Shown here in pieces: positions 5,300 through 61,344 of a stretch of 64,000 nucleotides of DNA. The notes below the pieces were generated by a model that saw only the letters and a list, made by a program, of their open reading frames with translations, ran no database searches and had not been told where the DNA came from. Both the position numbers and the translations under genes were made by a program. The stretch's first letter is position 1. Every line of letters begins with the position of its first letter. Origin of the DNA: Leptotrichia hongkongensis (GTDB taxonomy: Bacteria > Fusobacteriota > Fusobacteriia > Fusobacteriales > Leptotrichiaceae); contig NZ_AP019846.1 in assembly GCF_007990635.1 (NCBI RefSeq), forward strand, positions 1,054,001-1,118,000. The letters are read 5' to 3'.

Positions 5300-8200
5300 C
5301 TACATATTAAAATATTTACAGAACGGCTGTGAGAATACAATCGCACTTACTGTAGCTTCTGGGTACATCATAAATTCTTCTGTTAGAGAGATTCCGTATC
5401 TTTCTGGTTTTAAAAGATTAAATAATTTTCTCTGGTCACTTAAATCTGGGCAGGCAGGGTATCCGAAAGAGTAACGGTTTCCTTGATACTGGGCACTTAG
5501 AATTTCGTTTAAAGCAATGTCCTTGTCGATAATTCCTACATCCTGACGCATCATTTTGTGAATGTATTCTGATGTTGCTTCAGCCAGTTCAAGTCCTACA
5601 GAGTTTACAATATGCCCTCTGTAAAATTCACCTTTTTCTTTAAGTTCGTTTGAAACAAGTCTTGATTTTTCTCCTGCAGTTGCAACAAAGAATCCGATGT
5701 AGTCGATTCCATCTGGGCTTACATAATCATTTAATGATAAATACTGTCCGTATTTTTGTCTTGGGAAATCAAATGTTTCTAAAACAGTTGACAAGTCATC
5801 TGATAAAACTTCGATTTTGAAATCTTCCTTTCTTTCTCCAGCTTTTCGACGTACAGGGAAAAACTTGTAGATAGCTTTTATATCAAAATATTCATCACCA
5901 TTTTCGATAATATCCAAAATTTCATTGTATAATTTTATTGTTCTAGGGTCTTGCTTTTCAATTAGATTATTTACAATCCATTTCATTCCAAGATGTTTTC
6001 CAATTAGCATTTGTAAATTTATGAATGGGAATACATCTTTTGCTTTTATGTTTGTTATAATTTGTTTATTTAATGTTTGCGGCTTATAAATTTTTTCAAA
6101 GTCGTATTTTGGAAGTTCAACTTTTGAAAAATCAAATGTTCCGTCAGCATCTTTAATGTCACTTACTGTTGGTTTAACTTTCAGCTGCTCAAGTTTTTTT
6201 GCATCTTTAATTGTTACGAGTTCTCTACGTTTTTGCAAGTATTCCTTAAATTCTTCAAATTTTTTCTCATCAATCATTTTGTTTAAGTCAGCAAGAGCTG
6301 TCATTGCATCTCTTGAGTAAATTACGATATTATTTTTGTAGGCAGGCTCAATTTTATTTACAGTGAATTTTTCCGTAAGTGCCGCACCTCCTACAAATAT
6401 TGGAATATCAATACCAGCTTCATGCAGAACGCCCATAGTATTTACCATTTCTGTGGCAGATTTTACAAGAAGTCCAGAAAGTCCCAAGAAGTCTGCTTTG
6501 TGTTCAATAATTGCTTCACGGATTTTTTCAGCAGGAGTATTTATTCCTAAGTCAATTACTTCGTAACCGTTATTCCCAATGATTATTCCAACCAGATTTT
6601 TTCCAATGTCATGAACATCCCCTTTTACTGTTGCCATAATTACTTTTCCTTTTACAGATGATTCATCTTTTTCCATAAACTGTTCCAGATGTGAAACAGA
6701 GGCTTTCATAACTTCTGCACTTTGCAACACTTCGGCAACAATTAAATCATTGTTGTTAAACAGTCTTCCAACTTCATCCATTCCAGTCATCAGAGGACCG
6801 TTTATTATGTCAATTGGAGAATATTTCTGAAGTAATTCATCAAGATAGACAATTAAATCTTTTTTACTTCCTTCAACAACTAAATTTGAGACTTTTTCTT
6901 CGGTAGTTAAGTTGCTTGTATCGACCACTTTTTGGATAGCTTTTTTCTCACGATAGAAATTTGCAAATTTTGATACATTTTCATCGTTTGTATGGAATAA
7001 TAGATTTTCTGCCAATTCCTTTTCTTCATCTGAAATTTCGTCCATTGGCATAACTTTTTCAGTATTTACTATTGCATAGTCAAGTCCGGCTTCGTAGGCT
7101 TTTTGCATATAGTAAGTATTCAAAACTTCTCTTCCTGCGACAGGCAATCCGAATGAAACATTACTTACCCCTAAAATTGTCTTTACATTTGGCATTTCAG
7201 CTTTAATTTGTCTAATTGCCTCAATTGTTGCTGTGGCAGAGCCAATATACTTCTGATCTCCTGTAGCAACTGGGAAAACTAATGTGTCAAAGATTATATC
7301 TCTTTCATCAATTCCGTATTTTTTCGTAAGAAGTTCGTAACTTCTTCTAGCAACTTTCAATTTTTTCTCAACTGAAACAGCCATTCCTTCCTCATCAATC
7401 AGTCCTACAACGACAGAAGCCCCAAAATCCTTAATAACTTTTGCCATATCAGCAAATTTCTTTTCCCCATCTTCAAGGTTAATTGAATTTATAATTCCTT
7501 TTCCTTGCAAGTAAGTAAGACCTTCCTTGATAACATTTATATCAGTTGAGTCAATCATAAGAGGAACTTTTGCAAATTTTGCCACTTTATCTAAGAATGC
7601 TTTCATGTCTGCCACTTCATCCCTGTCTGGATTTGCAAGACAAATATCAATTACATCTGCACGCCCCTTAATCTGAAGTCTGGCAACTTCTGTTGCCTCG
7701 TCAAATTTTTCGCTTGCAATTAAGTTTTTAAAAATACGTGAACCAATTACATTTGTACGTTCCCCCACGTAAATTGGACGGTTTTTTGGAGTTTCTAAAG
7801 TAATTAGTCCTGATACATCGTTAAAATCTTTGTTTTCATCAATAACTCTTGGAGAATAGTTTACACTTTTTTCCTTAATTTTCTGAATATGTTCAGGCGT
7901 AGTTCCGCAGCACCCTCCAACAATATTTAAATAATTATTTTGGAAAAACGGCTCAATTTTTGCAGATAATGTATCTGGAGTTTCCTCGTATTCTCCATCT
8001 TCGTTGGGCAGTCCAGCATTTGGATAAACTGAAATATATGTATTTGAAATATTATTTAGTGTCTTTAAAAATTGTGTCATAAATTCAGGCCCTGTTGCAC
8101 AGTTCAATCCCACAGAAAATGGATTCATATGATTTACAGCGTAATAAAAAGCGTCTGCTGACTGTCCAGCAAGTGTAGTCCCTGTACTTTCGATTGTAAA

Positions 8201-8809
8201 CGATAGCATCAACGGTACAGTATAATTTTCTTCCATTGCCTTTTTAAGTCCTAAATATGCAGCCTTCAAGTTTCTGGTATCCTGAATTGTTTCAAATAGA
8301 ATCAAATCCACACCGCCAGCCATAAGTCCAGAAACAGCCGTATAATAACTATGGATAAGTTCCTCGAAAGTAACACCTCCAGTAACGCTGATAGATTTGT
8401 TAGAAGGCCCTAATGCCCCTGCAACATAAAGATTTCTCGTAACTTCAGGATGCTCGCTTCTATATTCAGCAATAGCTTCATTTACAAGTTCCGCTGCAGC
8501 TTTATTCATTTCAAAAGCTTTATCTTCCAAGTCATAATCCTTCAAGACAATATCCAAAGCCCCAAAACTGTTTGTTTCAATAATATCACTCCCAGCCTCC
8601 AGATATCCTTTATGAATATTTTTAATAATGTCAGGTCTTTGTAGAACAAGATAATCATTACATCCTTCATATTTTTCGCCACCAAAGTCATTGGCAGTTA
8701 AATGTTCTTGCTGAATCATAGTCCCCATCGCTCCATCCAGCAGTAATATTTTGTTTTTTAAATCATTTTGCAATAAATTGTAAGAATTTTTGTATTTGTT
8801 TTCTTTCAT
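5300..8809 (-). CDS. metH: Cobalamin-dependent methionine synthase
   Basis: Transfers a methyl group from 5-methyltetrahydrofolate through methylcobalamin to homocysteine, giving methionine; cytoplasmic. About 1169 residues and full length. Homocysteine domain (start to about 330) with zinc cysteines in NCATGP near 243 and GGCCGTTP near 306. Pterin-binding domain follows (about 345-610). Cobalamin domain with the lower-ligand motif DVHDIGKN near 739, then the C-terminal reactivation domain that binds S-adenosylmethionine, with RYSFGYPACPD. ATG at 8809 is chosen because AGGAG lies about 8 bases before it; a TTG at 8830 precedes that ribosome site. It is monocistronic. I saw no cobalamin or SAM riboswitch in the 450-base upstream gap. 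Confidence 0.97.
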   Translation of the reverse strand: MKENKYKNSYNLLQNDLKNKILLLDGAMGTMIQQEHLTANDFGGEKYEGCNDYLVLQRPDIIKNIHKGYLEAGSDIIETNSFGALDIVLKDYDLEDKAFEMNKAAAELVNEAIAEYRSEHPEVTRNLYVAGALGPSNKSISVTGGVTFEELIHSYYTAVSGLMAGGVDLILFETIQDTRNLKAAYLGLKKAMEENYTVPLMLSFTIESTGTTLAGQSADAFYYAVNHMNPFSVGLNCATGPEFMTQFLKTLNNISNTYISVYPNAGLPNEDGEYEETPDTLSAKIEPFFQNNYLNIVGGCCGTTPEHIQKIKEKSVNYSPRVIDENKDFNDVSGLITLETPKNRPIYVGERTNVIGSRIFKNLIASEKFDEATEVARLQIKGRADVIDICLANPDRDEVADMKAFLDKVAKFAKVPLMIDSTDINVIKEGLTYLQGKGIINSINLEDGEKKFADMAKVIKDFGASVVVGLIDEEGMAVSVEKKLKVARRSYELLTKKYGIDERDIIFDTLVFPVATGDQKYIGSATATIEAIRQIKAEMPNVKTILGVSNVSFGLPVAGREVLNTYYMQKAYEAGLDYAIVNTEKVMPMDEISDEEKELAENLLFHTNDENVSKFANFYREKKAIQKVVDTSNLTTEEKVSNLVVEGSKKDLIVYLDELLQKYSPIDIINGPLMTGMDEVGRLFNNNDLIVAEVLQSAEVMKASVSHLEQFMEKDESSVKGKVIMATVKGDVHDIGKNLVGIIIGNNGYEVIDLGINTPAEKIREAIIEHKADFLGLSGLLVKSATEMVNTMGVLHEAGIDIPIFVGGAALTEKFTVNKIEPAYKNNIVIYSRDAMTALADLNKMIDEKKFEEFKEYLQKRRELVTIKDAKKLEQLKVKPTVSDIKDADGTFDFSKVELPKYDFEKIYKPQTLNKQIITNIKAKDVFPFINLQMLIGKHLGMKWIVNNLIEKQDPRTIKLYNEILDIIENGDEYFDIKAIYKFFPVRRKAGERKEDFKIEVLSDDLSTVLETFDFPRQKYGQYLSLNDYVSPDGIDYIGFFVATAGEKSRLVSNELKEKGEFYRGHIVNSVGLELAEATSEYIHKMMRQDVGIIDKDIALNEILSAQYQGNRYSFGYPACPDLSDQRKLFNLLKPERYGISLTEEFMMYPEATVSAIVFSQPFCKYFNM

Positions 8810-9177
8810 TTTTTCAGCTCCTATTTTCAAATTACATTTTATTATTTTATCATAAAAAAGTGTATGTGTATATAGAAATATAATATTTTTCTAGTATATT
8901 TTTACTTATCAGAAACAATTTATATAAATATTTAAAAATAATCACAAATTTTTTAATATTATTTAAAAATAAATTTAATTATATTTGTAATAATTTTAGA
9001 AAATTTTTTATATTAATAGTTAAATAAAAAAATAATATTACAAAAACTATTATTTTTTCAGAAGTTTTTTAAATAATAATAAATAAGAAAATTTTGATAT
9101 ATAAAATATATAATTTACAAAACCCCTTTATCCATCAACTTAGAAAACTCTTTAATCAAAAATTAAATATAATCTTA
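8810..9177. other. AT-rich intergenic stretch between metH and the nrd promoter
   Basis: Very AT-rich sequence between two divergent transcription units, with many A and T tracts. No open frame with a ribosome site, no convincing structured RNA and no riboswitch-like conserved core is visible. It must hold the metH promoter on the minus strand, but no single -35/-10 pair stands out. Confidence 0.5.
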
Positions 9178-9206
9178 TTGAAAAAATTTCAAAAATGAGA
9201 TACACT
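9178..9206 (+). promoter_or_regulatory. Promoter of the nrd locus
   Basis: TTGAAA at 9178-9183, a 17-base spacer and TACACT at 9201-9206 form a good sigma-70-type promoter about 75 bases upstream of the nrdH-like start. The -10 element overlaps the first NrdR-like box, as expected for repression by NrdR. Confidence 0.7.
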
Positions 9207-9249
9207 ACATATACGATATAAATTTAAAAATAAACACAATATATTGTGT
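9202..9249 (+). promoter_or_regulatory. Tandem NrdR boxes
   Basis: Positions 9234-9249 read ACACAATATATTGTGT, a perfect palindrome matching the known NrdR box consensus acaCwAtATaTwGtgt. A weaker copy, ACACTACATATACGAT (9202-9217), agrees at about 12 of 16 positions. The boxes are 32 bases apart start to start, which is the three-helical-turn spacing typical of NrdR sites. NrdR is the ATP/dATP-sensing repressor of ribonucleotide reductase genes. The nrdR gene itself is not in the window. Confidence 0.85.
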
Positions 9250-9279
9250 TTTGTTAATAATAAAGGAGAAGATGTAGAA

Positions 9280-9519
9280 ATGAGAAAAATTATAAAATTT
9301 GAAAAAAATGATTGTAATCCATGTGCAATGGTATCTGACTTATTAGATAAAAAAGGAATAGAATATGAAAGAATAAATCCATTTGACAATCCAGAGATTG
9401 CTGTAAAATATAAAATAAGAAGTGTTCCAACAGTAATTTTGTTTGAAGAAAACGAAGAAATAAAAAGAACAATTGGATTTAAGCCAGAAGAAATCAATGA
9501 AATTATCTCAATGATGTAA
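9280..9519 (+). CDS. NrdH-like thioredoxin/glutaredoxin
   Basis: 79-residue thioredoxin-fold redoxin with the active site CNPC near residue 12 and the cis-proline loop SVPT near 48. It probably reduces the C-terminal cysteine pair of the NrdE subunit. The start is the ATG at 9280 after AAAGGAG; earlier in-frame codons precede the ribosome site. It is first after the NrdR-controlled promoter and followed by a terminator-like hairpin, so nrdI onward may depend on read-through or on a second promoter. NrdH proper is the likely role from context, but a generic thioredoxin cannot be excluded. Confidence 0.8.
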   Translation: MRKIIKFEKNDCNPCAMVSDLLDKKGIEYERINPFDNPEIAVKYKIRSVPTVILFEENEEIKRTIGFKPEEINEIISMM

Positions 9520-9558
9520 CTTTAGAACAATTTGAAAATACAATTTAAAGTAATAATA

Positions 9559-9605
9559 ATACTCAAAACAAATTTTATTAAAATATTTAGTTTTGGGTAT
9601 ATTTT
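9559..9605 (+). terminator. Probable terminator after the nrdH-like gene
   Basis: ATACTCAAAAC pairs with GTTTTGGGTAT (one G-U pair) across a 20-base loop and is followed by ATTTTAT. The T tract is weak, so it may only attenuate transcription into nrdI. Confidence 0.5.
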
Positions 9606-9628
9606 ATGCCAAAAATTCGGAAATGTAA

Positions 9629-9734
9629 TCGAACCAATTTAAAATTATACTCTTTAGAGTTATACAAATTTAGGGTTTGAGAATAATAGTTATAGTTTTT
9701 GAACTTGGTTTTAAAGAAATTTTACTATATATTT
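9629..9734 (+). repeat. Dispersed intergenic repeat, family A, copy 1
   Basis: About 105 bases sharing the order TCGAACC...AATTTAGGGTTTGA...AATAGT...TTTTTGA...TTTTAAA...TTTTACTATA with copies at 41717-41823 (+), 55261-55344 (+) and 20333-20405 (-). TCGAACC and GGGTTTGA are near-complementary, so the left half can fold into a hairpin. It fills the gap before nrdI. No coding potential. Confidence 0.65.
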
Positions 9735-9879
9735 AAAATTGCTTGAAATTTAAAGTTGTATAAAATTAAATGAGTTAGCATAATTAAGGATTTTTGGTTT
9801 AAAAAAATATTTGTGAAATAAAAATTAGCAGCTTTTTCACGAAAAAGTGAAACAAATATTAAAAAGCAAGGTGAAATCG

Positions 9880-10251
9880 ATGTATATATATTACGATTCA
9901 AAAACAGGAAATGTTGAACGATTCATAAAAAAAATGCAAGCCAAACGTCCAGACTGGCATTTTATAAAGATAAATCCAACTATGGTAATCAAAAATGAAG
10001 GACATTTTCTGACATTTACAACAAAAATTGGAGAAATTCCAGTAACAACAAATGAATTTCTGCAAAATGAAAACAACAGCAAACTATTAAAATCAGTAAG
10101 TTCCAGCGGAAACAGAAACTGGGGGCAATTTTTCGCACTAGCAGCTGATAAAATTCAGCAAAAATACAAAATTCCAGTATTAATGAAATTTGAGTTATCA
10201 GGAACAAGTACGGAAGTGGAAAATTATATTGAGTATTTGGAAAATAACTAA
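9880..10251 (+). CDS. nrdI: NrdI flavodoxin for class Ib ribonucleotide reductase
   Basis: 123-residue flavodoxin-like protein that supplies the oxidant used to assemble the Mn(III)2-tyrosyl radical in NrdF. The family signature is clear: YYDSKTGNVERFIKK at the N-terminus (FMN phosphate loop), LTFTTKIGEIP, and SSGNRNWGQFFALAADKI near residues 70-90, ending LMKFELSGT. The start is the ATG at 9880 after AAGGTG; an upstream in-frame start at 9847 lacks a site. It belongs with nrdH, nrdE and nrdF although an unusual 500-base gap precedes nrdE. Confidence 0.95.
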   Translation: MYIYYDSKTGNVERFIKKMQAKRPDWHFIKINPTMVIKNEGHFLTFTTKIGEIPVTTNEFLQNENNSKLLKSVSSSGNRNWGQFFALAADKIQQKYKIPVLMKFELSGTSTEVENYIEYLENN

Positions 10252-10442
10252 CTTTATTTTTGTAGGATTGCTCATTGCTGCAAAACCTTACCTTGCAATA
10301 AAGATTTATCCTAATAATTAAAATTATGGCAAGATTGCTACGCAATAACCTATGGCTAGTCTACGACATTTTTCTGCACTGACAAAAAACTCGCTACGCT
10401 CAGACAGTTTTGCCAGCACAGAAAAATGCTCCGACGGATTAG
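10252..10442. repeat. Palindrome-rich intergenic segment
   Basis: Contains a hairpin framed by TAGGAT...ATCCTA (about 10263-10313) and a larger imperfect palindrome at 10367-10428: CATTTTTCTG and CAGAAAAATG arms, continued inward by matching CTGaCAAAA/TTTTGcCAG, around a loop holding CTCGCTACGCTCAGACAG. Base composition is richer in G+C than the flanks. It looks like a REP-like or miniature element. No open frame. Confidence 0.5.
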
Positions 10443-10538
10443 TTTATACTAGACTTTGTTTGAAAAATAAAAATTATATCTTATAATTACTTGAAAATAT
10501 TAGGTTTATATCCTTTATTAAAAAAGTTTATAAGAAAG
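10443..10538 (+). repeat. Dispersed intergenic repeat, family B, copy 1
   Basis: About 95 bases beginning TTTATACTAGACT that align along their length with the complement of 19756-19845 between the Fur-family gene and znuA. Within this copy TTGAAA, 16 bases and TATAAT could act as a promoter toward nrdE. Confidence 0.6.
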
Positions 10539-10631
10539 TTTTGTGTTGAGCGGGGTGGTTCGTAGAACATTTCGCTATTATCTCTAAGTAGTAATCAGTT
10601 AAATATGTTAAAGTAACTGTTATTGCGAAAA

Positions 10632-10660
10632 AGGGCATGACGTCTGATGCCCTTACGTTA
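10632..10660. other. Hairpin in the nrdI-nrdE gap
   Basis: AAGGGCAT and ATGCCCTT arms around an 8-base loop form a strong stem. Read on the minus strand it is followed by TTTTT, like a terminator, but no minus-strand gene ends here. On the plus strand it has no T tract. Possibly the end of a small minus-strand transcript or part of a decayed element. Confidence 0.4.
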
Positions 10661-10769
10661 AAAAAACTAAAAATAATATAAAAAGAAATAATAATTATTA
10701 ATAAAAATAATTTAATTGGATTAGTAAAAGTTATGTAAAAATTATAAAATAAAAAAATAGGAGAAGATT

Positions 10770-12869
10770 ATGGTAGATAAAAGAGCAAAAAAATGGATAT
10801 ACCTAAATAATGAAATAATGGTAAAACAAGGGGAGGATTTTCAGCTGGAGAAAGATAAGGAGGCTGTTTATTCGTATTTTGTAGATTATGTGAACAAAAA
10901 TACGGTGTTTTTTCACAATCTTGAGGAAAAGATGAGATATTTGATAAAAAATGATTATTATATTGATTTTTATGAGATGTATAATCATGATGAGATAAAA
11001 GGAGTATTTAAGCTGGTTTATGATAAGAAGTTTAGATTTGCTTCGTTTATGAGTGCATCTAAGTTTTACCAAAGCTATGCTTTGATGGATGATTCTGGAG
11101 AAAAGTTCTTGGAAAGATACGAAGACAGGATTGCTACAGTTTCGCTTTATTTGGCACAGGGAAATGTTGAAAAGGCAAAAGAGTATGCTTTGATGTTGAT
11201 AAATCAGGAGTATCAGCCAGCTACACCGACTTTTTTAAATTCTGGTAAAAAACGTTCTGGAGAGCTTGTTTCTTGTTTTCTTGATGAAATGGGAGATAAT
11301 TTGAGCGGGATTGGATACAGTTTTGACTCGGCTATGAAATTGTCTTCAATTGGTGGAGGAGTTTCGATGAATCTTTCTAAAATAAGAGCAAGAGGTGAAT
11401 CAATAAAAGGAGTGGAAGGCAGAGCTTCTGGAGTTTTGCCGATTATGAAAATTTTGGAGGATATTTTTTCGTATGCAAATCAGTTAGGACAAAGAGCTGG
11501 GGCTGGAGCGGTTTATTTAAATGTCTTCCATTCTGATATTAATGAATTTTTGGATAGTAAAAAGATAAATGTAGATGAAAAAATCAGGATAAAATCATTG
11601 TCAATCGGAGTTATTGTTCCAGATAAATTTATGCAGCTGGCAATGGAAGATGAAGTTTGCTACACGTTTAATCCACACACAGTATTTCTAGAATATGGAC
11701 AATATCTGGATGAAATGGATATGAACGAAATGTATGAAAAACTGGTTGATAATCCAAATGTTAAAAAGAAAAAAATAAATGCAAGGGAACTTCTTGTAAA
11801 AATTTCTCAAACGCAAAAGGAAAGCGGGTACCCTTATTTATTCTTTAAAGATAATGCAAATAAGGAACACGCATTAAAAGAAATCGGAACAGTTAAGTTC
11901 TCAAATTTGTGTACTGAAATTATGCAATTATCAGAAGTTTCAGACATTAATGCTTACTATGAAGAAGATACGATAAGACGTGGAATTTCATGTAATTTAG
12001 GTTCATTAAATATTGCAACTGTAATGGAAAATAAGAGAATAAAAGAAGCTACAAAAGCGGCAATTGATTCACTTACAATGGTATCAGACTTGACAAACAT
12101 TGATATTGTTCCGTCAATAAAAAAAGCAAACGACGAGCTACACTCAGTAGGACTGGGAGCAATGAACCTGCACGGATACTTGGCTAAAAACTTTATTATG
12201 TATGAAAGCAAGGAAGCACTTGACTTCTGTAACGTATTCTTCATGATGGTAAACTTCTATTCATTGGAACGTTCAATGGAAATTGCAAAAGAAAAAGGCG
12301 AAACTTTCAAGGACTTTGAAAAATCTGAATACGCCAATGGAAACTATTTTGACAAATACATTACAAAAGAATACATGCCACAAACAGAAAAAATAAAACA
12401 GCTATTTGAAGGAATCTATATCCCAACAAAAGAAGACTGGGCAAACCTAAAAGAGCAAGTAATGAAACACGGAGTCTACAACGCCTATCGAATGGCAATC
12501 GCTCCAAACCAGTCAACATCCTACATAATGAACTCCACAGCCTCAGTAATGCCAGTAGTTGACACAATCGAAGTAAGAGAATACGGAGACAGCACAACTT
12601 TCTACCCAATGCCATACCTGACAAACGACAACTACTTCTTCTATAAGTCAGCATACGATATGGATCAAAAAAATATCTTGAAACTAATTTCTGTAATTCA
12701 AAGACACGTAGATCAAGGTATTTCGACTATTTTGTATACAAAGAGTACAGACAGCACAAGAGATTTGGCTAGACTTTATATTTATGCACATAGGCTGGGG
12801 TTGAAGTCGCTTTATTATACTCGGACTAGGAAGGCGACTATTGAGGAGTGTATTTCATGTTCAGTTTAG
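10770..12869 (+). CDS. nrdE: Class Ib ribonucleotide reductase, catalytic subunit
   Basis: 699-residue large subunit reducing ribonucleoside diphosphates. No N-terminal ATP-cone, as is usual for NrdE. Visible active-site parts: a cysteine in GELVSCFLD, the radical-site loop NLCTE, its partner cysteine in GISCNLGSLN, the PNQSTSYIMNSTASVMP segment, and C-terminal CISCSV, the redox pair reduced by NrdH. ATG follows AGGAG. Codon use and sequence look intact. The gene's last codons double as the ribosome site and start region of the downstream NUDIX gene, and its partner nrdF lies 2.2 kb further on, separated by a defence-type insertion. Confidence 0.97.
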   Translation: MVDKRAKKWIYLNNEIMVKQGEDFQLEKDKEAVYSYFVDYVNKNTVFFHNLEEKMRYLIKNDYYIDFYEMYNHDEIKGVFKLVYDKKFRFASFMSASKFYQSYALMDDSGEKFLERYEDRIATVSLYLAQGNVEKAKEYALMLINQEYQPATPTFLNSGKKRSGELVSCFLDEMGDNLSGIGYSFDSAMKLSSIGGGVSMNLSKIRARGESIKGVEGRASGVLPIMKILEDIFSYANQLGQRAGAGAVYLNVFHSDINEFLDSKKINVDEKIRIKSLSIGVIVPDKFMQLAMEDEVCYTFNPHTVFLEYGQYLDEMDMNEMYEKLVDNPNVKKKKINARELLVKISQTQKESGYPYLFFKDNANKEHALKEIGTVKFSNLCTEIMQLSEVSDINAYYEEDTIRRGISCNLGSLNIATVMENKRIKEATKAAIDSLTMVSDLTNIDIVPSIKKANDELHSVGLGAMNLHGYLAKNFIMYESKEALDFCNVFFMMVNFYSLERSMEIAKEKGETFKDFEKSEYANGNYFDKYITKEYMPQTEKIKQLFEGIYIPTKEDWANLKEQVMKHGVYNAYRMAIAPNQSTSYIMNSTASVMPVVDTIEVREYGDSTTFYPMPYLTNDNYFFYKSAYDMDQKNILKLISVIQRHVDQGISTILYTKSTDSTRDLARLYIYAHRLGLKSLYYTRTRKATIEECISCSV

Positions 12870-13498
12870 GAAAAGTAATAAATATAATATATAGCATTAT
12901 AGATTTTTCGAAAAAAATAGAAAAAATATTGGATAAAATGAAAGAGATCTTATTTAAAAATGAAGAGATTAGAGTTTCAGCAGCCTATTTATTTAGAATA
13001 AAAATAGAAAATAAATATTTATTGGTAAAAGGAAATAAAATTTCTCAATATCAACCAATAGGTGGAGTTTACAAATATAAAAATAGTTTTAAATCAAAAA
13101 TGAATGAATGGGAAGCAAGAGAAGAGGAAACAGAAAATTTTTATGAAAAAAATGATATTAGGATAATAATAAAACGAAAATATATTTCTGAGTTTAAAAA
13201 ATGGTTTAATAGTAAAAAAAATAGAGAATGTGATTATAAAAGAGAATTTGAAGAAGAAATTATAAAGAAAGATATTTTACCTGAAAATGTTAAAATTAAT
13301 TTTGATTTTATAAGAACTATAGATTTGGGAATAAAGTATTCAAAACATTTTGAAAGAAAGGAATTAAAAATATTTGATATTATTCAAATAGAATTAGATA
13401 AAGAATCAGAAAATAAAATATTAGAGTATTTAAAAAGATCTGATTATTTATGTTTAGCTAAAGGAAATGAAATAAAAAAGAGACTTTTGACTTATTAA
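12857..13498 (+). CDS. SMODS-associated NUDIX-domain protein, putative CBASS component
   Basis: 213 residues. A hydrophobic/amphipathic N-terminal helix region (FSLGKVINIIYSIIDF) precedes a NUDIX-type domain: AAYLFRIKIENKYLLVKG, QPIGGVYKYK, and a Nudix-box-like CDYKREFEEEII around residue 135. The overall pattern matches the SMODS-associated NUDIX family described beside cyclic-nucleotide synthases. Its substrate is unknown; candidates are the cyclic messenger, NAD or nucleotides. The ATG at 12857 overlaps the 3' end of nrdE by 13 bases, with GAGGAG inside nrdE as ribosome site. The next gene is a CD-NTase. Assigned from motifs and neighbour, without a search. Confidence 0.7.
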   Translation: MFSLGKVINIIYSIIDFSKKIEKILDKMKEILFKNEEIRVSAAYLFRIKIENKYLLVKGNKISQYQPIGGVYKYKNSFKSKMNEWEAREEETENFYEKNDIRIIIKRKYISEFKKWFNSKKNRECDYKREFEEEIIKKDILPENVKINFDFIRTIDLGIKYSKHFERKELKIFDIIQIELDKESENKILEYLKRSDYLCLAKGNEIKKRLLTY

Positions 13499-13559
13499 AT
13501 AAAACTGAAAAAATAAGCGAACACTCAAAATATATTTTATAACAAAACTAGGGAGAATA

Positions 13560-14995
13560 ATGGAGTATTCAAAAAAATAATTAAAATTTTGGAAGAGATA
13601 GAAGTTTCTGAAAGTAATTACGAAAAAGCGGAAAATAGATATAAAAATATTTCAGAATATATTTGTAATTCGGAATTAAAAAATTTAATCCAGATATATT
13701 TATTCAAGGGTCAATTAAGTTAGGAACAGCTATAAAACCGATAACAGAAGAAGGAAGTTATGACATTGATATTGTTTGTTGTTTTGAAAAACTTTCTAAA
13801 AATGAAATAACACAAAGAGATTTAAAAATCAACTTGGTAAAGAAATAATAAATTATTCTAAAAAAAATAATATGAAGAATAAACCTAAAAATGGAAAGCG
13901 TTGCTGGACAATGACTTATATTGATAAAGATAATTTTCATATTGATATTATGCCATGTATTCCTAATAATCAAAATAGTAATAATATCGTTGCTTTAACA
14001 GATAAAAGAAATAAAGAATATAATATAATTACCAACAACTGGGAAATAAGTGTTCCTAGAGATTATTACAATTGGTTTATTAAAATTTCTGAAAATGAAA
14101 AATATAAAAAGCATTTGCTGAAAACGTAAAATTAAACATAGAAGAAATTCCAGATTATAAAATAAAAACACCGTTACAGCAAATTATTCAAATTTTAAAA
14201 AGACATGCAGAAATAGAATTTAGTAATAACATGGAGTATAAGCCTTCATCAATAATTATAACGACTTTAGTAGCTAAAACTTATGATAATTTAATTAAAG
14301 AAAAAAAAATTAGAAATTTTGATGAATTATTGATAGAAATTGTAAAAAAATTGAAATATCATATAAATAAAAATGAAAATGGCAATCCCTGTATTTTAAA
14401 TCCTGTAAATGAAAAAGAAAATTTATCATTGAAATGGGAAGATGATGTTAAATATTTTAATGAATTTAATAGATGGATAGAAAAAATAAACAAAGATTTT
14501 TATTTACAAGAAAATGTATTAATGGGAGTAGGAGAAAGTTTAAAAATTGAAAAAAGTATTTACGATAATGAAAAATTAGTAAAAGAAATAAGTCATCATA
14601 AAAAACCTGAATGGAAAATGGTTAATGAAAAAGAAATAAAAATTATTGTAAAATATGAGATAAGAGGATTTAGAGAAAGAAAAATAGAAAGTAATACGCC
14701 GATAAATAAAAATGCTAGATTAAAATTTGAGATTAATTTAAATAATACAGAAAAATATGAAATATATTGGCAAGTAACGAATACAGGTAATGAAGCTCAA
14801 GAAGCAAATTGTTTAAGAGGAGATTTTTATAACTCTCATATTGAAAAAGGCAAAAAAATTAGAAGGGAAAAAACAGCCTATATAGGTAAACATTATGTAG
14901 AGGCTTATTTAGTAAAAAACGGAATATGCTATGGAAAAAGTGAACCTTTTGTAGTAAATATTGTTCAAGAATTAAAAAATCCATTAACTATGTAA
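13560..14995 (+). pseudogene. CD-NTase (SMODS) with AGS-C sensor domain, four frameshifts
   Basis: Reads as one cGAS/DncV-like nucleotidyltransferase of about 480 residues once single bases are added at 13571-13577, 13678-13683, 13824-13828 and 14114-14116. Catalytic motifs survive: GSIKLGT followed by SYDIDIV (first two acidic residues), and FHIDIMP (third). The intact 254-residue 3' frame from 14231 ends in a domain with YWQVTNTGNEA, LRGDFY and YIGKHYVEAYLVKNG, matching the adenylyl/guanylyl and SMODS C-terminal sensor (AGS-C). It would make a cyclic nucleotide signal on infection for the NUDIX partner. ATG follows GGGAGAATA. Broken gene or homopolymer errors: undecided. Confidence 0.75.
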
Positions 14996-15073
14996 TTTAA
15001 GATAAAAAATGAGTGATTTGAACTTGGATTAATAAATAAAAAAATAAAGTTTTTTAGAAGGGAAAATGAAAAA

Positions 15074-16078
15074 ATGAAGAAAAAAATATACGAAGCAGTA
15101 AACTGGAACACACCTGAAAATGATTATGTAGAGATGTTTTGGGAGCAGAATTTGAAGCAGTTTTGGATTGATACGGAGTATATTCCGTCGAAGGATATTG
15201 ATAGCTGGAATTCGCTTGAGCCTGCGATGAAGTTGGCGTATTTGCACGTGTTGGGAGGATTGACACTGTTAGATACGTTGCAGAGCCATACGGGGATGCC
15301 GAAGATTATTGATCATATTGAGTCGCTGCAAAATCGTTCGGTGCTTTCATATATGTGTATGATGGAAACGATTCACGCAAAGTCTTATTCGACAATATTT
15401 ACAACGGTTGCGTCTACAAGGGAGATTAACGAAACGTTCAGATGGGTTCAGGAAAATCCGCACTTGCAGTATAAAGCCAATAAAATTGACGGATATTATC
15501 AGAAAATGAATAATCCTGAGGCTTCAAAAAGAGAAATAGCGATGGCTCTGGCGGCTTCGGTTTATTTGGAAACATATTTATTTTACAGCGGATTCTTTTT
15601 ACCGCTTTGGCTTGCAGGACAGGGAGAAATGGTTGCAAGTTGCGATATAATCAAGAAAATCATAGCTGATGAATCGATTCACGGAGTTTTTGTCGGACTA
15701 TTATTTCAAGAATTATACAATTCTTTCAGTGAAGAAGAAAAAGCTGATATGAGAGCTGAACTGAAAAAATTGATGTACGATTTATATGAAAATGAAACAA
15801 GATATACTGATGAAATTTATGGTGATTTGGGACTTACAGGCGATGTGAAGGAATACATCCGTTACAATGCGAACAAAGCCTTGATGAATCTAGGATTTGA
15901 AGAAGAATTTGAAGTGAAAAATGTAAATCCAATTGTGTTAAATGGATTAAATGTGGAAACAACACAGCACGATTTCTTCTCGAAAAAATCTACGAATTAT
16001 GAAAAAGCACTGGAAGTGGTGCATTTGCATGATGATGATTTTAAATTTAATAATGATGAATTAGATTTGGAGATTTAA
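15074..16078 (+). CDS. nrdF: Class Ib ribonucleotide reductase, radical subunit
   Basis: 334-residue small subunit housing the dimetal site and tyrosyl radical. All six metal ligands appear in place: Asp in LTLLDTLQ, Glu and His in METIHAKSY, Glu in YLETYLFY, and Glu and His in IADESIHG. The radical Tyr lies four residues after the first His. This is therefore a standard NrdF, not the metal-free variant. ATG at 15074 follows AGAAGGG. In most genomes it directly follows nrdE; here the NUDIX/CD-NTase pair lies between. yaaA starts 4 bases after its stop. Confidence 0.96.
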   Translation: MKKKIYEAVNWNTPENDYVEMFWEQNLKQFWIDTEYIPSKDIDSWNSLEPAMKLAYLHVLGGLTLLDTLQSHTGMPKIIDHIESLQNRSVLSYMCMMETIHAKSYSTIFTTVASTREINETFRWVQENPHLQYKANKIDGYYQKMNNPEASKREIAMALAASVYLETYLFYSGFFLPLWLAGQGEMVASCDIIKKIIADESIHGVFVGLLFQELYNSFSEEEKADMRAELKKLMYDLYENETRYTDEIYGDLGLTGDVKEYIRYNANKALMNLGFEEEFEVKNVNPIVLNGLNVETTQHDFFSKKSTNYEKALEVVHLHDDDFKFNNDELDLEI

Positions 16079-16081
16079 TCT

Positions 16082-16813
16082 ATGAAAATTATAATATCAC
16101 CAAGTAAAACTAAAAAAATTAACAATTTGCCAATAAAAGATAGTGGCTCTTTGACTCAAAAAGAGGCTGTTTATTTGGAAATAACGAAGGAAATTATTGA
16201 AAGAATAAAAACCTTTTCTGTAGAAGAAATTGAGAAAAAGTTTAAATTAAAAAATCAAAAGGCACAAAAGTTATTGGAATTTTATAAAAATTATGAAAAC
16301 GAGAAAAGCGGAAATGCTTTGGTAAGTTATACTGGTGTTGCGTATAAGGCTATAAAGATTGAAACACTTGATAAAAGTGATTTTGAATATTTGGAATCGC
16401 ATTTGGTTATCTTGTCTGCTTTGTATGGGATTTTGACCCCTTATACAAATGTGAAGGAGTATCGTCTTGATATGACAAATTCAATTTTTGAAAGTAAATC
16501 GCTTTATGAGGTTTGGAAAACTAGCGTGAATGAATATTTTGAACACGAAGACATTATTTTAAATCTTGCTTCAAAGGAATATTCTAAACTTATAAACCCT
16601 GATAAATTGATTGATTTTGAGTTTTGGGAAGACTCAAATGGGAAATTAAAGCAAGTGAGTACAAACTCGAAGAAAATGAGAGGTTTTACTTTGAATTATA
16701 TTGTGAAAAACAAGGTTAGTGATGTAAAAAAATTGAGAAATATTACTTTAAATGGGTATGTTTTTGATGAGGATATGTCGGATGAGAGAAAATATGTTTA
16801 TGTGAAAGAGTGA
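16082..16813 (+). CDS. yaaA: YaaA family peroxide-stress protein
   Basis: 243 residues, the usual length for the DUF328/UPF0246 family. It shows the N-terminal signature MKIIISPSKTKKI and the conserved stretches SYTGVAYKA and LSALYGILTPY. In E. coli YaaA limits unincorporated iron and DNA damage during peroxide stress. It starts 4 bases after nrdF, so it is probably translated from the same message. This links iron control to a metal-dependent reductase; that link is an inference from position. Confidence 0.9.
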   Translation: MKIIISPSKTKKINNLPIKDSGSLTQKEAVYLEITKEIIERIKTFSVEEIEKKFKLKNQKAQKLLEFYKNYENEKSGNALVSYTGVAYKAIKIETLDKSDFEYLESHLVILSALYGILTPYTNVKEYRLDMTNSIFESKSLYEVWKTSVNEYFEHEDIILNLASKEYSKLINPDKLIDFEFWEDSNGKLKQVSTNSKKMRGFTLNYIVKNKVSDVKKLRNITLNGYVFDEDMSDERKYVYVKE

Positions 16814-16879
16814 TAAAAAGGGGAATAAAAAAATAAGTGTCAGATTTTGGTCTTTTATAAAGTTATGAAGGGAAGATAT

Positions 16880-17070
16880 ATGAATAAATTAATCTTTATT
16901 TTTTATTATTGAAAGTTTTAGGGTTTTCAAAAGATAAAACTGTGACAAGAGATAAAAAAATATCTGAGGAAAAAAGAAAATTTTTATTAAAATTTTCAGA
17001 ACGAACACCGTATAAGACAGAAATTGAAAATCTGGTAGATTATAATTATATCTGCATTTTTAATAATTAA
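16880..17070 (+). pseudogene. Small hypothetical protein with frameshift
   Basis: GAAGGGAAG precedes an ATG at 16880. Reading stops after ten codons, but one extra T in the run at 16899-16904 yields a 63-residue protein. It has a hydrophobic start (MNKLIFIFLLLKVLGF), resembling a signal peptide or membrane anchor, then a charged body ending ICIFNN. Unknown family. It is followed by a terminator. Confidence 0.4.
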
Positions 17071-17084
17071 ATAATTAAAAAAAC

Positions 17085-17116
17085 AGAGAGTTTTAGATAT
17101 ATACTCTCTATTTTTA
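17085..17116. terminator. Terminator between converging units
   Basis: AGAGAGT and ACTCTCT form a 7-bp stem with an 11-base loop, followed by ATTTTTATTT. On the minus strand it also has a T-rich flank, so it may serve both yaaA and the ABC permease gene. Confidence 0.75.
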
Positions 17117-17135
17117 TTTATGCTTATAATAAAAA

Positions 17136-17978
17136 TTAATTCAAAAATTTCCCCTTCACAAATCCCCCAACCTTAACTAACGCCAACAAGATTGTAAGCA
17201 ACACAATAATAGAAGGGCCTGACGGAATATTTAGCGTGTAGGAAAAATATAGTCCTGACAGTATTCCGATAAATGAGAAAATTATGGATAGAATTATGAT
17301 TGCTGAGTATTTTCTTGCAAGTGAGGCTGCGATTGCCTGTGGGATTGTCAGGATTGAAATTATTAGGATGATTCCTATTGTTTTTATGTTTATTATTATG
17401 ACGGAGGATATTAGGATTATCATAAAGTAGTTTATGAAGGTTACTGGGACGCTGTGGATTTTGTAGAAGTTTTCATCAAAACTGGTGTAGACGATACTTT
17501 TGTAGAAGATGATGAAAAATGTGATTGTGATTATGTCCAGTATTAACAGTAAAATTATGTTTAGGGTGTTGGATAAAAGGATATTTCCGAATAAATAAGT
17601 TGACATATCTGATTGATAGCCTGGTGTCAGGAAGGCAAAAATAATTCCGATAGCCATTCCCATTGACATAACGATACCTATTCCTAAATCACCGTCAACG
17701 TGCAGAGTGTCTTTTAAAACCAAAATCAGTACACCTGACAATATTGAGAAAATCAGTCCAAAAAATAATGGATCTTTTATTGGCAAGTTAAAGAAGTAAA
17801 TTAGGTAGATTCCTATTCCGATACCGCCGTAAGACGCATGGCTAATACTTGATGAAATAAAGACCATTTTTTTATTTACAATATAAGTTCCTATTATTCC
17901 ACAGCATATACTAGAAAGAAGCCCTACAATAAGGGCGTTTCTCATAAAAGCGTATTCAAAAATTTTTATAAATTCCAT
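17136..17978 (-). CDS. znuB: Zinc/manganese ABC transporter permease
   Basis: 280-residue integral membrane protein of the ABC-3 family with about eight hydrophobic helices. Family features include SSSISHASYGGIGIG near residue 40 and SILTIPQAIAASLA in the C-terminal half, the cytoplasmic region that docks the ATPase. Together with the ATPase and binding protein just upstream it forms a metal importer in the cytoplasmic membrane. The symbol follows the zinc system because of the His-rich binding protein; manganese specificity is possible. It is last in the operon. Confidence 0.85.
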   Translation of the reverse strand: MEFIKIFEYAFMRNALIVGLLSSICCGIIGTYIVNKKMVFISSSISHASYGGIGIGIYLIYFFNLPIKDPLFFGLIFSILSGVLILVLKDTLHVDGDLGIGIVMSMGMAIGIIFAFLTPGYQSDMSTYLFGNILLSNTLNIILLLILDIITITFFIIFYKSIVYTSFDENFYKIHSVPVTFINYFMIILISSVIIINIKTIGIILIISILTIPQAIAASLARKYSAIIILSIIFSFIGILSGLYFSYTLNIPSGPSIIVLLTILLALVKVGGFVKGKFLN

Positions 17979-25579: not shown

Positions 25580-26484
25580 ATGAAAAAAGAAAATTTTTTG
25601 AAGCAGTTTCCGAAAGAAATGGAGTATCTGGCGAGTAAATTATATAATTCATATGAAATTGCACGAAACTATGAAATTATAAGTTTTACTGAGGAATTTT
25701 ATACACCAAATTTTTGGAAGAAGCTTGGAAAAAAGATGGGCGGAGTGAATATTGCCTGTGATGGAGTTTTTAGTGATAGCGATAGACGGCAAATTGCGTT
25801 TGTACCTGAAATTTTTATAAATGGAAATGATAATTTTGAAAATTTTTGTAATGATATTGATAGGAATAGTGAAAATTTTGATATTGATGATGAAAAATAA
25901 AAAGTTATGGAGAATTTGAAGAAAATTTTAGTAAAAATAGTTTTGAATTTCCGAATAAATTGTTAAAAATATCGATAGATTCAAGATTCCGTGAATATTT
26001 ACACAAAGATTTTTTGGGAAGCCTTATGGGTCTTAATATAAAAAGAGAACTTATGGGGGATTTGATTATTGAAAGTGAAAATAAACAGGTTTTGGGATAC
26101 ATTCCAGTTTCTGAAAAAATTGCAGATTACATTATTTCAGAATTAAAACAAATTGGAAAAGCGCCTTGTGAAATTGAAATTATTGAAACCAAAAATAAAA
26201 ATAGTCTTCCAAAATACAAGTATGATGATAAGTTAGTAACTGTTCCATCAAAACGTCTAGATAGTATAGTTTCAACAATTACCAATTTATCCCGTACAAA
26301 AGTAATTGATCCGATTGAAAAAGGAAAAGTGCTGGTAGATTATGTGGAAGAAAAGGACAAGTCAAAAATGCTTGAGATTGGTAGTCTAATTACAGTAAGA
26401 GGATTTGGAAAGTATAAGTTATTTTTGGATAAAGGAGAAACAAAAAAGGGAAAAGAACGAATTCTTGTGAAAAAATATATTTAG
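25580..26484 (+). pseudogene. YlmH-like S4-domain RNA-binding protein, frameshifted
   Basis: Two frames give one roughly 300-residue protein if one A is added in the runs at 25893-25903. The first part (MKKENFLKQFPKEMEYLASKL) and middle (SRFREYLHKDFLGSLMGLNIKR) match the YlmH layout. The C-terminal S4 RNA-binding domain covers SKRLDSIVSTITNLSRTKV to FGKYKLFLDKGETKKGK. YlmH relatives act on ribosomes, including rescue of stalled large subunits. Such a conserved gene would normally be intact, which favours a sequencing undercall here. Confidence 0.75.
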
Positions 26485-58013: not shown

Positions 58014-58076
58014 TTTCTGAAAAAATATTTACGTAAAGTCAAAAAATAGAATTAAATTAAAATAAATGGAGTGAAA

Positions 58077-61000
58077 ATGAGTATTTTAGTCAAAAAATCT
58101 GAGCCAAATAATTTAATAAATACAGAAGAAAAAAATGATAATTTTTTAGAAATAACCGAATACAAGGAAAATTTGGAATTTGAAGTTCTGGAAACATTTT
58201 CAGAAAAAATTTCTGATTTTATTGGAAAAAATGATTATCAAAAAGTTATTGAATTTACCGAAAAACAGTTGTATTTATTAAATCAGGCATTTACAGATAA
58301 ATCAGAAAAAATAAAAACTCAAAATACTGATTTTCACTTTGAGTTACCATTAAAACGAAAAAATAGCGATATAATCGGGAATATAAATGAATTAATTATA
58401 AACGAAAAAGTAAAGTTTCGTAATTTTTTTATTTATTTAAAACAGGAATTATTAAACTGTAAAAATTCTATTTTATAGTAAGTTTTATAAAATACTCAGG
58501 TATACAGCTTTTAATAAGTACTTTAGATGAACTTGAAAAACAAGGCATTCAAGGGGAAATTATAACATCTGTCTATCTAAATATCACAGACTCAAAGGCG
58601 TTGCGAAAACTTTTGTCGTATAAAAATATAAAAGTAAAGATTTACAATAATTCAAGCGAGAGTTTTCATACAAAAGCATATTTATTTGAAAAGGAAAAAT
58701 ATCATAGTGTTATAATCGGATCATCTAATATTAGCCAAAGTGCTTTATATTCGGCTGAAGAATGGAATGTGAAACTGACAGACAGCAGTTTTTTTAATAT
58801 TTATGAAAAATCATTAAACCAATTTGAAAAATTGTGGCACAGTAATGAAGCAATAGAATTGACAGAAGATTTTATTGATGAATATGAAAAATATAAAAAA
58901 TCTATAAATACACAAAATACATTTGATTATAGAAAAACAAAAATAACACAAAAAGATGAATTTGTTCCAAATAGCATGCAAAAAAGAGTTTTGGAAAAGT
59001 TGGAGGAAACAAGAGAAAATGGCAATAAAAAAGGACTCGTGATTTCTGCAACTGGTACAGGGAAAACTTATCTTGCTGCAATGGATATAAAACAATTTTT
59101 TGAAATTAATTCTAACAATAAAAATAAATTGTTTGAAACAAATGATGGCAAGTCCAAAATTTTAAATATAAAATTTTTATTTATCGCCCATCGTGAAGAA
59201 TTGCTGGAAAATGCAATAAATGTCTTTTCGAGAATTCTCAAAATTGATAAAAATGAATTTGGAAGAATTTACGGTGGCTTAAAAGAAATTAATAAAAGTA
59301 TGATTTTTGCTTCGATTCAATCATTAAGAAATTATTACAATGAATTTAAACTTGATTTTTTTGATTATATCATAGTTGACGAATTTCATCATTCAATGTC
59401 AGACAGTTATTTAAATACACTATCGTATTTTCAGAGTAAATTTTTGCTAGGTTTGACAGCAACTCCGAAACGTATGGATGGCAAAGATATTCTGTCACTT
59501 TGTGACTATAATGTTGTTGATGAAATTGGAATAAAAGAGGCTTTGGAAGAGGATTTGATTGTGCCTTTTCATTATTTTGGTGTAAATGATTACATGATTA
59601 ATTATGATAACATTCCTTACAAAAATGGGAAATATAATGAAAAAGTATTATTAGAAAATTTATTACTGAACACACGTACCGATTATATTGTTGAAAAAAT
59701 AAATAAGTTTGGTTTTGATGGTGATAAATTAAGTGCTATCGCATTTTGCCAAAATATAGAGCATGCTTTTTTCATGAAAGAAGAATTTACAAACAAAGGC
59801 TATAAATCCGCTGTAATCACAGCAAATACAAGTTCAAATGATAGAGCAGAAATTTTAGATAAATTTAAAAATAAAAAAATTGAAATTTTATGTGTAGTAG
59901 ATATTTTAAACGAAGGAATTGACATTCCAACAATTAATTTACTGCTATTTTTACGTCCTACAATGTCCTCAACAATTTTTATACAGCAAATTGGAAGAGG
60001 ATTAAGAAAGGCTGAAAATAAAGATTTTGTTACAATTATTGATTTTATTGGAAATCATAAGAAAGATTATTTGCTAATAGATTATTTTTCAAACGAAGTT
60101 GACAACAAGGATACTTTATTTACTAAAAAGAAAAATAATAAACGAAATAAAAAATCAATTTTCAAATATTCCAAAATCATGCTATGTAGAACTAGATAGA
60201 GTTTGTCAAAATCGTATTATTGAAAAAATCGAAAAAATCAACTTCAGTTCTAAAAATATTTTAAAAGACTTGTATTTAGATTATAAAGAAGAAATTGGCA
60301 AATCTGAAAATGAAATTTTAAAAGTAAGTAATTTTGATACAAATATCGAATTATTTCAAGAATTATCCTTAAAATTAGGCTCATTTTATAATGCACAATT
60401 ACAATTTGAAAATCCTGAAATTCTAAAAATGAATAAAATATCTTTAAATTCAGAAGAAATTGAATTTTGGCATATTTAGAAAAAAATTGACGCTTGTAGA
60501 GCCATTTACGTATTTAATTATAAATTATTTGATAAATAATGAGTTTATAACTTCAGAAATTACTATTAATGAATATAAAAATTATTTTAATATAAAAAAT
60601 AATTTTGAAAAAGAATATGTTATAAACCGTATTTTTAGAGAATTAGTTGAAGATAAAATTTTAGAACAAAATTCAAAAAATAATAATTTATTTAACATCT
60701 CTGAAAATTACAGAAAAATATTTCAAAATATAGATAAAATTAATAATAACAATAAAATAAACCTAAAACTTATAAATTTAGATAATTCTCAAAATTCAAA
60801 TTATAATTTCAAGATTTGTCTAAAAGAATTACTATATTTAGGATTGTCAGAATTTAAGAAAAGTAATAATTTATCGATATTTAATGAGAATATTCTGATT
60901 CCATACAAAAAATATAAAAGAATAGAACTCCAAATTTTGCTTGATTCCAAAGTGCCAAAAGGCAGCTGGAGAGCAGGTTATGCAAATACAGACAAGGATA

Positions 61001-61344
61001 TTTGCCTTTTTGCAACAATTGACAAGACCCATATTTTACAAGAAAACTTAAAATACGATAATTCTTTATTTGCTGACAACATAATTCAATGGATAAGCCA
61101 ACCTAAAACAGCCCATAACTCAAGTGTCGGGAAAATGTTTACAAACCATAGTGAATTAGGGTATAATGTCCACATATTTATAAGGAAATATGCATTCATG
61201 AATAATAATAAAACAAACCCATTTATTTATCTAGGAAAAGCCAATTATTATAAAAGCTATGGAGATAAACCAATGAGAATTTTATGGAAGTTAGATGAAA
61301 AAATACCACAAGAATTAATTTATGAATTGTATAATTTAAGTTAA
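58077..61344 (+). pseudogene. PLD-nuclease / DEAD helicase / DUF3427 protein, three frameshifts
   Basis: Four frames join into one protein of about 1,085 residues with shifts at 58471-58474, 60149-60154 and 60475-60477. An N-terminal region is followed by a phospholipase-D nuclease domain (SFHTKAYLFE with HxK, then GSSNISQSAL). The SF2 helicase has Walker A SATGTGKT, DEFHH box IIVDEFHHSM, TATPKRMDG and motif VI QQIGRGLRKAENKD. The C-terminal DUF3427 domain has SKVPKGSWRAGYAN, KTAHNSSVGKMF and FIYLGKANYYKSYGDKP. Such proteins are predicted nucleases in repair or defence. GGAG precedes ATG at 58077. Degraded or miscalled. Confidence 0.75.

Follow-up and report, generated by a model that had tools for sequence, protein, structure and literature searches.

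The nrdE–nrdF interval of Leptotrichia and its nearest relatives as a probable exchange hotspot for defence and toxin–antitoxin cassettes, holding a frameshifted CBASS in L. hongkongensis

Ribonucleotide reductase, encoded by nrdE and nrdF, is required for DNA synthesis, and homing endonucleases and introns occur between the nrd genes of phages. Defence hotspots with conserved core flanks and interchangeable defence genes, both known and unknown, between them have been described in E. coli (PMC10121019) and Pseudomonas (PMC10250203); in E. coli their median occupancy is 8% and their contents are prophages, ICEs and other mobile elements (PMC10121019). Among CBASS effectors, the Cap16-type membrane effectors are the counterpart of the Sa_NUDIX family, and Cap16 reportedly stays toxic when its NUDIX domain is mutated (PMC10419184). 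Systems of the AbiF/AbiD type with an RNA antitoxin have also been described (PMC12373285). The nrdE–nrdF interval of Leptotrichia resembles the two sets of bacterial hotspots in its conserved flanks and interchangeable contents, but differs from those of E. coli in that its occupancy is essentially complete and its inserts, of 0.5–5.7 kb, lie within one operon, are strand-biased and are free of integrases. As with the phage elements, the insertions are into an nrd gene cluster; unlike them, the occupants are defence or toxin–antitoxin genes, and no homing endonuclease families were found between nrdE and nrdF. In the 64,000-nucleotide stretch of L. hongkongensis DNA that we analysed (the window), the occupant is like a CBASS with a TM-NUDIX effector (Cap16) and an AGS_C CD-NTase in gene order (NUDIX, then CD-NTase), Pfam domains and catalytic motifs, and unlike one in that both genes are frameshifted, the N-terminal membrane segment is short and the site is inside nrdEF. 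The notable feature is the spot, more than the CBASS in it. We found no paper describing an nrdE–nrdF defence hotspot, and the E. coli hotspot paper (PMC10121019) does not mention nrd. The features of the locus, in window positions, are as follows.

9178–9206, + strand: promoter-like −35/−10 of nrdHIEF (TTGAAA, 17 nt, TACACT; 9 of 12 consensus matches), a kind of site expected many times by chance in AT-rich DNA, here overlapping the NrdR boxes
9202–9249, + strand: tandem NrdR boxes, one degenerate (9202–9217) and, 32 bp downstream, one perfect (ACACAATATATTGTGT, 9234–9249)
9280–9519, + strand: nrdH, glutaredoxin-like (Pfam Thioredoxin/Glutaredoxin on 9244–9516); probable start ATG 9280, with AAGGAG ahead
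9847–10251, + strand: nrdI (Pfam Flavodoxin_NdrI, 1.1e-28)
10770–12869, + strand: nrdE, intact, left border of the hotspot (Pfam Ribonuc_red_lgC, 4e-155)
12857–13498, + strand: SMODS-associated NUDIX gene, Cap16-like effector (PF18167, 4.1e-49; PADLOC 2TM effector, 2.2e-58)
13560–14995, + strand: CD-NTase (CBASS cyclase) gene in five frame pieces (tblastn with the intact CD-NTases of genomes L061 and L059)
13579–13721, + strand: N-terminal open piece of the CD-NTase, ILEEIEVSESNYEKAENRYKN... (ORF list and tblastn)
13672–13848, + strand: CD-NTase piece with QGSxKLGT...YDIDIV, the metal-binding motif (ORF list and tblastn)
13822–14129, + strand: CD-NTase piece with KRCWTMTY...FHIDIMP (PADLOC cyclase, 8.5e-23 for 13872–14126)
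14108–14995, + strand: C-terminal piece of the CD-NTase, open up to the stop (PADLOC cyclase, 1e-69 for 14231–14992)
14585–14962, + strand: AGS_C sensor domain (PF18134, 9e-30, residues 119–244 of ORF 14231–14995)
15002–15073, + strand: nrdF leader common to relatives, right border of the insert (blastn homology to genomes G006 and G002 begins at 15002)
15074–16078, + strand: nrdF, intact (Pfam Ribonuc_red_sm, 4.8e-84)

The preliminary description had recognized a NUDIX-domain protein with a Nudix-box-like motif, followed by a nucleotidyltransferase with GSxKxGT, DID and FHIDI motifs and an AGS-C-type sensor, the pair being embedded between nrdE and nrdF behind an NrdR-type promoter, and the profile searches agree: PF18167, PF18134 and PADLOC CBASS profiles were matched, the three motifs were located in the CD-NTase pieces, and both flanks were identified by Pfam. 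The perfect NrdR box, within the nrdH leader at the operon head, is the single match to ACACNATATATNGTGT in the whole window. The SMODS-associated NUDIX domain expected of a Cap16 (TM-NUDIX) effector is present, and the REFEEE box of the protein recurs in three relatives in the form REFxEE. Its N-terminal membrane segment is short, with an N-terminus that has about 15 residues fewer than that of the nearest relative, in L061; one helix is predicted there with low confidence (residues 4–32), and mean hydropathy is 1.63 over 15 residues. The two-gene operon has intact homologues in L061 and L059, where the NUDIX gene also lies directly upstream of the CD-NTase; tblastn with their CD-NTases gave E values of 3e-103 and 6e-82 with matches over three frames, and among solved structures the CD-NTases closest to the intact homologue are 9woo and SmCdnG (8hsb). 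No sequence match to the NUDIX protein was found in the PDB and nothing better than one weak match in phages; the CD-NTase had no match in viral contigs, and in plasmids it had distant homologues only (about 29–33% among the matches listed). The NCBIfam profile search returned nothing useful, and a genome-wide search for other copies of the insert gave chance matches only.

Each of the 13 genomes of the genus has an interval of 1.5–5.7 kb, and so do G019, G022, G026 and G029 (17 genomes in total). These last are four of the five genomes from three nearby genera, and the fifth, G017, has an interval of 0.5 kb; in ten outgroup genomes nrdE and nrdF are adjacent. Between constant core flanks the contents vary: AbiH, Abi_2/AbiD, Fic of two kinds, RelB-YafQ, a type II methyltransferase with its restriction enzyme, Bunzi BnzB and CBASS; other occupants are an 816-aa gene in G001 and G012 and a membrane protein in G006. 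Defence or toxin–antitoxin families account for about 40 of the 62 occupant ORFs, about a third have no known family, and the 54 other ORFs of the window gave few PADLOC matches, mostly generic, the criteria of the two counts not being identical. Strand is nearly invariant, with 62 of 63 ORFs (at least 85 aa) on the nrd strand; the single exception is antisense and overlaps relB. A mobile element with an integrase as carrier is lacking: no integrase or recombinase was found among the representative intervals scanned, and one IS30-like transposase gene lies in the interval of G003. The survey of nrdE–nrdF neighbourhoods proposed earlier returned an insertion in every genome of the genus, with varied and unrelated genes rather than CBASS throughout. 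Chance insertion, which had been offered as the alternative, is inadequate, since no genome of the genus has the slot empty and its contents are mostly defence or toxin–antitoxin genes lying in the direction of nrd.

Cassettes are 93–98% identical between species whose flanking nrdF genes are only about 80–83% identical. By family, between genomes with nrdF identities mostly of 77–83%, the values are 95–98% for RelB-YafQ, 95–97% for Abi_2, up to 96% for Fic and 94% for the 816-aa gene. In most pairs the identity of nrdE and nrdF falls at the cassette border, and only in G022 does a high-identity tract extend into nrdE. Among 33 genomes of the family, every Abi_2 copy of at least 86% identity and every full Fic copy of at least 83% identity lies in the slot. 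Judged from these sequences, the cassettes have been transferred horizontally, and since integrases are absent, the route would be homologous or cassette-by-cassette recombination.

We therefore favour, with a probability of roughly 0.8, the reading that the nrdE–nrdF interval of the genus and its nearest relatives is a hotspot where phage-defence and toxin–antitoxin cassettes integrate and are exchanged, the CBASS being one decayed occupant. Cassettes would be gained, lost and passed between species, with nrdE and nrdF kept intact, and retention would be limited to those in the nrd direction. The defence activity and other functions of the occupants are those predicted from their families. 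For the two-gene CBASS found here, a Cap16-like NUDIX effector with an AGS_C CD-NTase, infection would lead the CD-NTase to make a cyclic nucleotide, and the activated effector would damage the membrane. At most known hotspots it is prophages or integrative elements that land; a slot in an essential operon that is essentially always filled, strand-biased and free of integrases suggests another mode of storing and exchanging immunity. It is also a simple place to seek unknown defence genes, given the share of its ORFs that lack a known family.

A serious competitor, to which we give somewhat less than even odds, is that the interval is a neutral landing site, where insertion past the nrdE stop is harmless, arrivals in the permissive direction stay, and the frequency of defence genes simply reflects their abundance among mobile genes. 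High turnover, the many decayed occupants, the several genes of no known family and the transposase in G003 would all fit such a site. However, occupancy that is essentially 100% over four genera, with empty outgroups, speaks against it, and the confinement of near-identical cassette alleles to the slot points to repeated exchange there.

It is also possible, although we consider it doubtful, that the slot ties defence expression to the NrdR-controlled operon, so that the genes are induced when dNTPs fall during phage takeover or DNA damage. The perfect NrdR box that heads the operon, the shared orientation of the occupants, first ORFs that mostly begin no more than 65 nt from the nrdE stop, and the absence of terminator-like sites from 9000–17200 are consistent with co-transcription of occupants and nrd; in the window, the ATG of the NUDIX gene even lies inside the 3′ end of nrdE, behind GAGGAG. 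Yet co-orientation would be expected anyway, to spare nrdF expression, and the nrdH–nrdI and nrdI–nrdE intervals, with many promoter-like sites at about chance frequency, leave space for further promoters. The Abi_2 cassette, moreover, has a promoter of its own (TTGACA-17-TATAAT) and a short terminator-like leader, in which it resembles the AbiF/AbiD systems with an RNA antitoxin (PMC12373285); the leader had no match at gathering score in Rfam, and a scan of the nrdE–nrdF intervals yielded no RNA family for it. The stronger version, in which the nrd operon of the genus is an expression platform for swappable immunity cassettes, with at least one defence or toxin–antitoxin module translated beside an essential enzyme and rising as dNTP pools fall in infection, seems to us improbable. 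Whether nrd operons retain immunity genes for regulation becomes directly testable.

Under the hotspot reading, the copy in the window is a decaying CBASS remnant as assembled, and probably inactive, because both of its genes are frameshifted. The earlier proposal of a CBASS-like pair thus stands for the identities of the genes, given by Pfam and PADLOC, and not for their integrity: the catalytic GS...DxD motifs and the SMODS/AGS_C domains are distributed over five pieces in place of one open cyclase frame, and the last 20 or so codons of the NUDIX gene sit in another frame. It is unlikely, in our view, that these breaks are homopolymer errors of assembly and that in the living strain the nrd promoter drives a functional Cap16-type CBASS. 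The CBASS breaks all coincide with A runs and shift the frame in one direction, the CD-NTase pieces retain all catalytic motifs, and a flanking ylmH-like gene (25580–26481) and a DUF3427 helicase (58601–61341) are also broken at A runs, as such errors would produce. Against this, five breaks fall in 2.1 kb of insert and one in 22.5 kb of conserved genes, a background taken within the window; per homopolymer run of at least 6 the figures are 5/19 versus 1/122 (Fisher p about 1.5e-4 to 2e-4). Genome completeness is 99.68%, the NUDIX N-terminus is short by some 15 residues against the nearest relative, and comparable decay is seen in independent assemblies (AbiH in G004, Fic in G009, Fic2 in G019 and G029). 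Errors in raw long reads would also give breaks at A runs, and one isolate of the species was compared.

That the NUDIX protein hydrolyses nucleotides and depletes dNTPs, and owes its place in the nrd operon to this, as first suggested, is very improbable: four homologues share the REFxEE box and the modelled fold is NUDIX-like (Foldseek best match 3oga, E 6.6e-4), but the Cap16 NUDIX mutant is reportedly still toxic (PMC10419184), the pair lies away from nrd elsewhere (after BREX-like genes in L061, after other genes in L059), and nucleotide chemistry is not common to the other occupants. Nor is there a specific link between nrd and either CBASS or NUDIX, as the slot holds genes of unrelated kinds in the relatives. 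The nrd genes of the genus host one further kind of insertion: a 1-kb interruption of nrdE in two relatives (G002 and G007), considered as an intron, proved to be an in-frame intein.

Among the 33 family genomes compared (G numbers), nrdF is present in 32, in a close form in about 28, and the 12 further members of the genus have nrdE and nrdF 1.5 to 5.7 kb apart. They are likewise separated in G019, G022, G026 and G029, from three nearby genera, with an interval of 0.5 kb in G017; nrdE adjoins nrdF in ten outgroup genomes. A survey of this neighbourhood, proposed in the preliminary description, bore out that the gap is filled in the genus and nearby genera, but its contents differ, and CBASS occurs in the window only.

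Contents of the nrdE-nrdF interval
AbiH: G002, G004
Abi_2/AbiD: G002, G003, G006, G010, G011, G019, G022
Fic protein: seven genomes
Second Fic protein: G011, G019, G026; broken in G029
RelB-YafQ: G002, G006, G007, G008, G010, G012
Type II methyltransferase and restriction enzyme: G005
Bunzi BnzB: G008, G009
PIN domain (weak): G008
PDC-M09B candidate: G012
CBASS: the window
Several proteins without known family, e.g. an 816-aa protein: G001, G012

Defence or toxin-antitoxin families account for about 40 of the 62 plus-strand ORFs (at least 85 aa), and the sole minus-strand ORF overlaps relB in antisense; no integrase was seen in the interval representatives scanned. The interval is best read as a hotspot of cassette exchange within an essential operon, its occupants kept in the direction of nrd since an insert turned the other way would harm nrdF. 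CBASS with NUDIX is already known, as are defence hotspots; the open-licence papers searched yielded none that sits between nrdE and nrdF. Nearby, the nrdI-nrdE gap (window 10252-10769; 7684-9293 of relative locus L048) also varies among relatives, from 27 bp to 1.6 kb; nrdE of G002 and G007 carries an in-frame 333-codon intein before Cys381 (L044:7294-8292; L049:4205-5203, the latter listed on the minus strand), absent from the window nrdE; and in G010 nrdF is followed immediately downstream by a CRISPR array (L052:35-447; Rfam CRISPR-DR7, six repeats).

Cassette identity (RelB-YafQ, Abi_2, Fic among genus members, the 816-aa gene) is 93-98% where nrdF mostly shows 77-83%, and in most pairs nrdE/nrdF identity falls at the cassette border. 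Close Abi_2 and Fic alleles occur at this site only, homologues of at most 69% identity sitting elsewhere, and G022 shares with G002/G010 a high-identity tract, a few hundred bases long, over the 3' end of nrdE. From these comparisons we infer that cassettes were probably exchanged through recombination, either at the site or close to it; both kinds of Fic gene in G019 and G026 are, judging by their 76-83% identity, older. The Abi_2 promoter/terminator leader occurs twice in the G011 interval (L053 about 7341-7495 and 8428-8553), once ahead of Fic, and such repeated leaders could be recombination sites.

The occupants may be expressed together with the nrd operon: first ORFs mostly begin within 65 nt of nrdE, and a search for terminator-like sites (window 9000-17200) gave none, but the Abi_2 cassette has a strong promoter of its own and a terminator-like leader, as expected of an AbiF-type system with RNA antitoxin (PMC12373285); Rfam gave no match on that leader.

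The insert itself lies where the preliminary description placed it and is flanked by nrdE and nrdF.

Features in the window
9234-9249, plus strand: perfect NrdR box (sequence match)
12857-13498, plus strand: SMODS-associated NUDIX protein ORF (PF18167, 4.1e-49)
13560-14995, plus strand: CD-NTase (C-terminal piece, AGS_C 9e-30; CBASS cyclase profiles 1e-69)

Profile searches of both products, with PADLOC CBASS profiles among the matches, thus confirmed the proposed pair, and the nucleotidyltransferase motifs GSxKxGT, DID and FHIDI are all present. The NUDIX ORF also matched PADLOC profiles for CBASS 2TM effectors (2.2e-58) and RT-associated NUDIX (1.6e-46); its start codon falls within nrdE, 8 bases downstream of GAGGAG. 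A predicted model, built from only four sequences (mean pLDDT 80), shows a helix at the N-terminus together with a NUDIX-like domain. As for the NrdR-type promoter, the perfect box and a degenerate one 32 bp upstream of it lie over a promoter-like TTGAAA-17-TACACT, which is that of nrdH; the insert follows 3.6 kb further downstream. CBASS as such would work through sensing by the CD-NTase, which would make a cyclic nucleotide that activates a Cap16-like membrane effector. Since, according to the review PMC10419184, a NUDIX mutation does not do away with Cap16 toxicity, the suggestion that the NUDIX effector depletes nucleotides finds little support.

The same pair has open frames in two genomes: that of L059, which belongs to the same order, and that of L061, Christensenella sp. 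UBA3700, where it lies behind BREX-like genes. Compared with these, the window CD-NTase is in five pieces over three frames, and the NUDIX gene, its N-terminal hydrophobic segment shorter than in L061, leaves the frame about 20 codons ahead of the homologous end. All breaks fall at runs of A. Their uniformity, and a similarly broken ylmH-like gene, would suit assembly error, which we consider improbable though not negligible. We read them as real decay, because breaks per homopolymer run (at least 6 bases) number 5/19 in the insert vs 1/122 in conserved genes (Fisher p 1.5e-4), the latter being one A-run break in 22.5 kb shared with relatives.

The gene with a YlmH RNA-binding domain (window 25580-26481), frameshifted at an A run, is intact in relative G006. 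A second broken defence gene of the window, encoding PLD/helicase/DUF3427 (58071-61341; type IV-like restriction by PADLOC), is split into several frames and adjoins a phage-type integrase (61793-62614). In Christensenella UBA3700 (L061:251-8117) the intact pair directly follows PglZ- and BrxL-like genes (names read from sequence), a BREX/CBASS combination.
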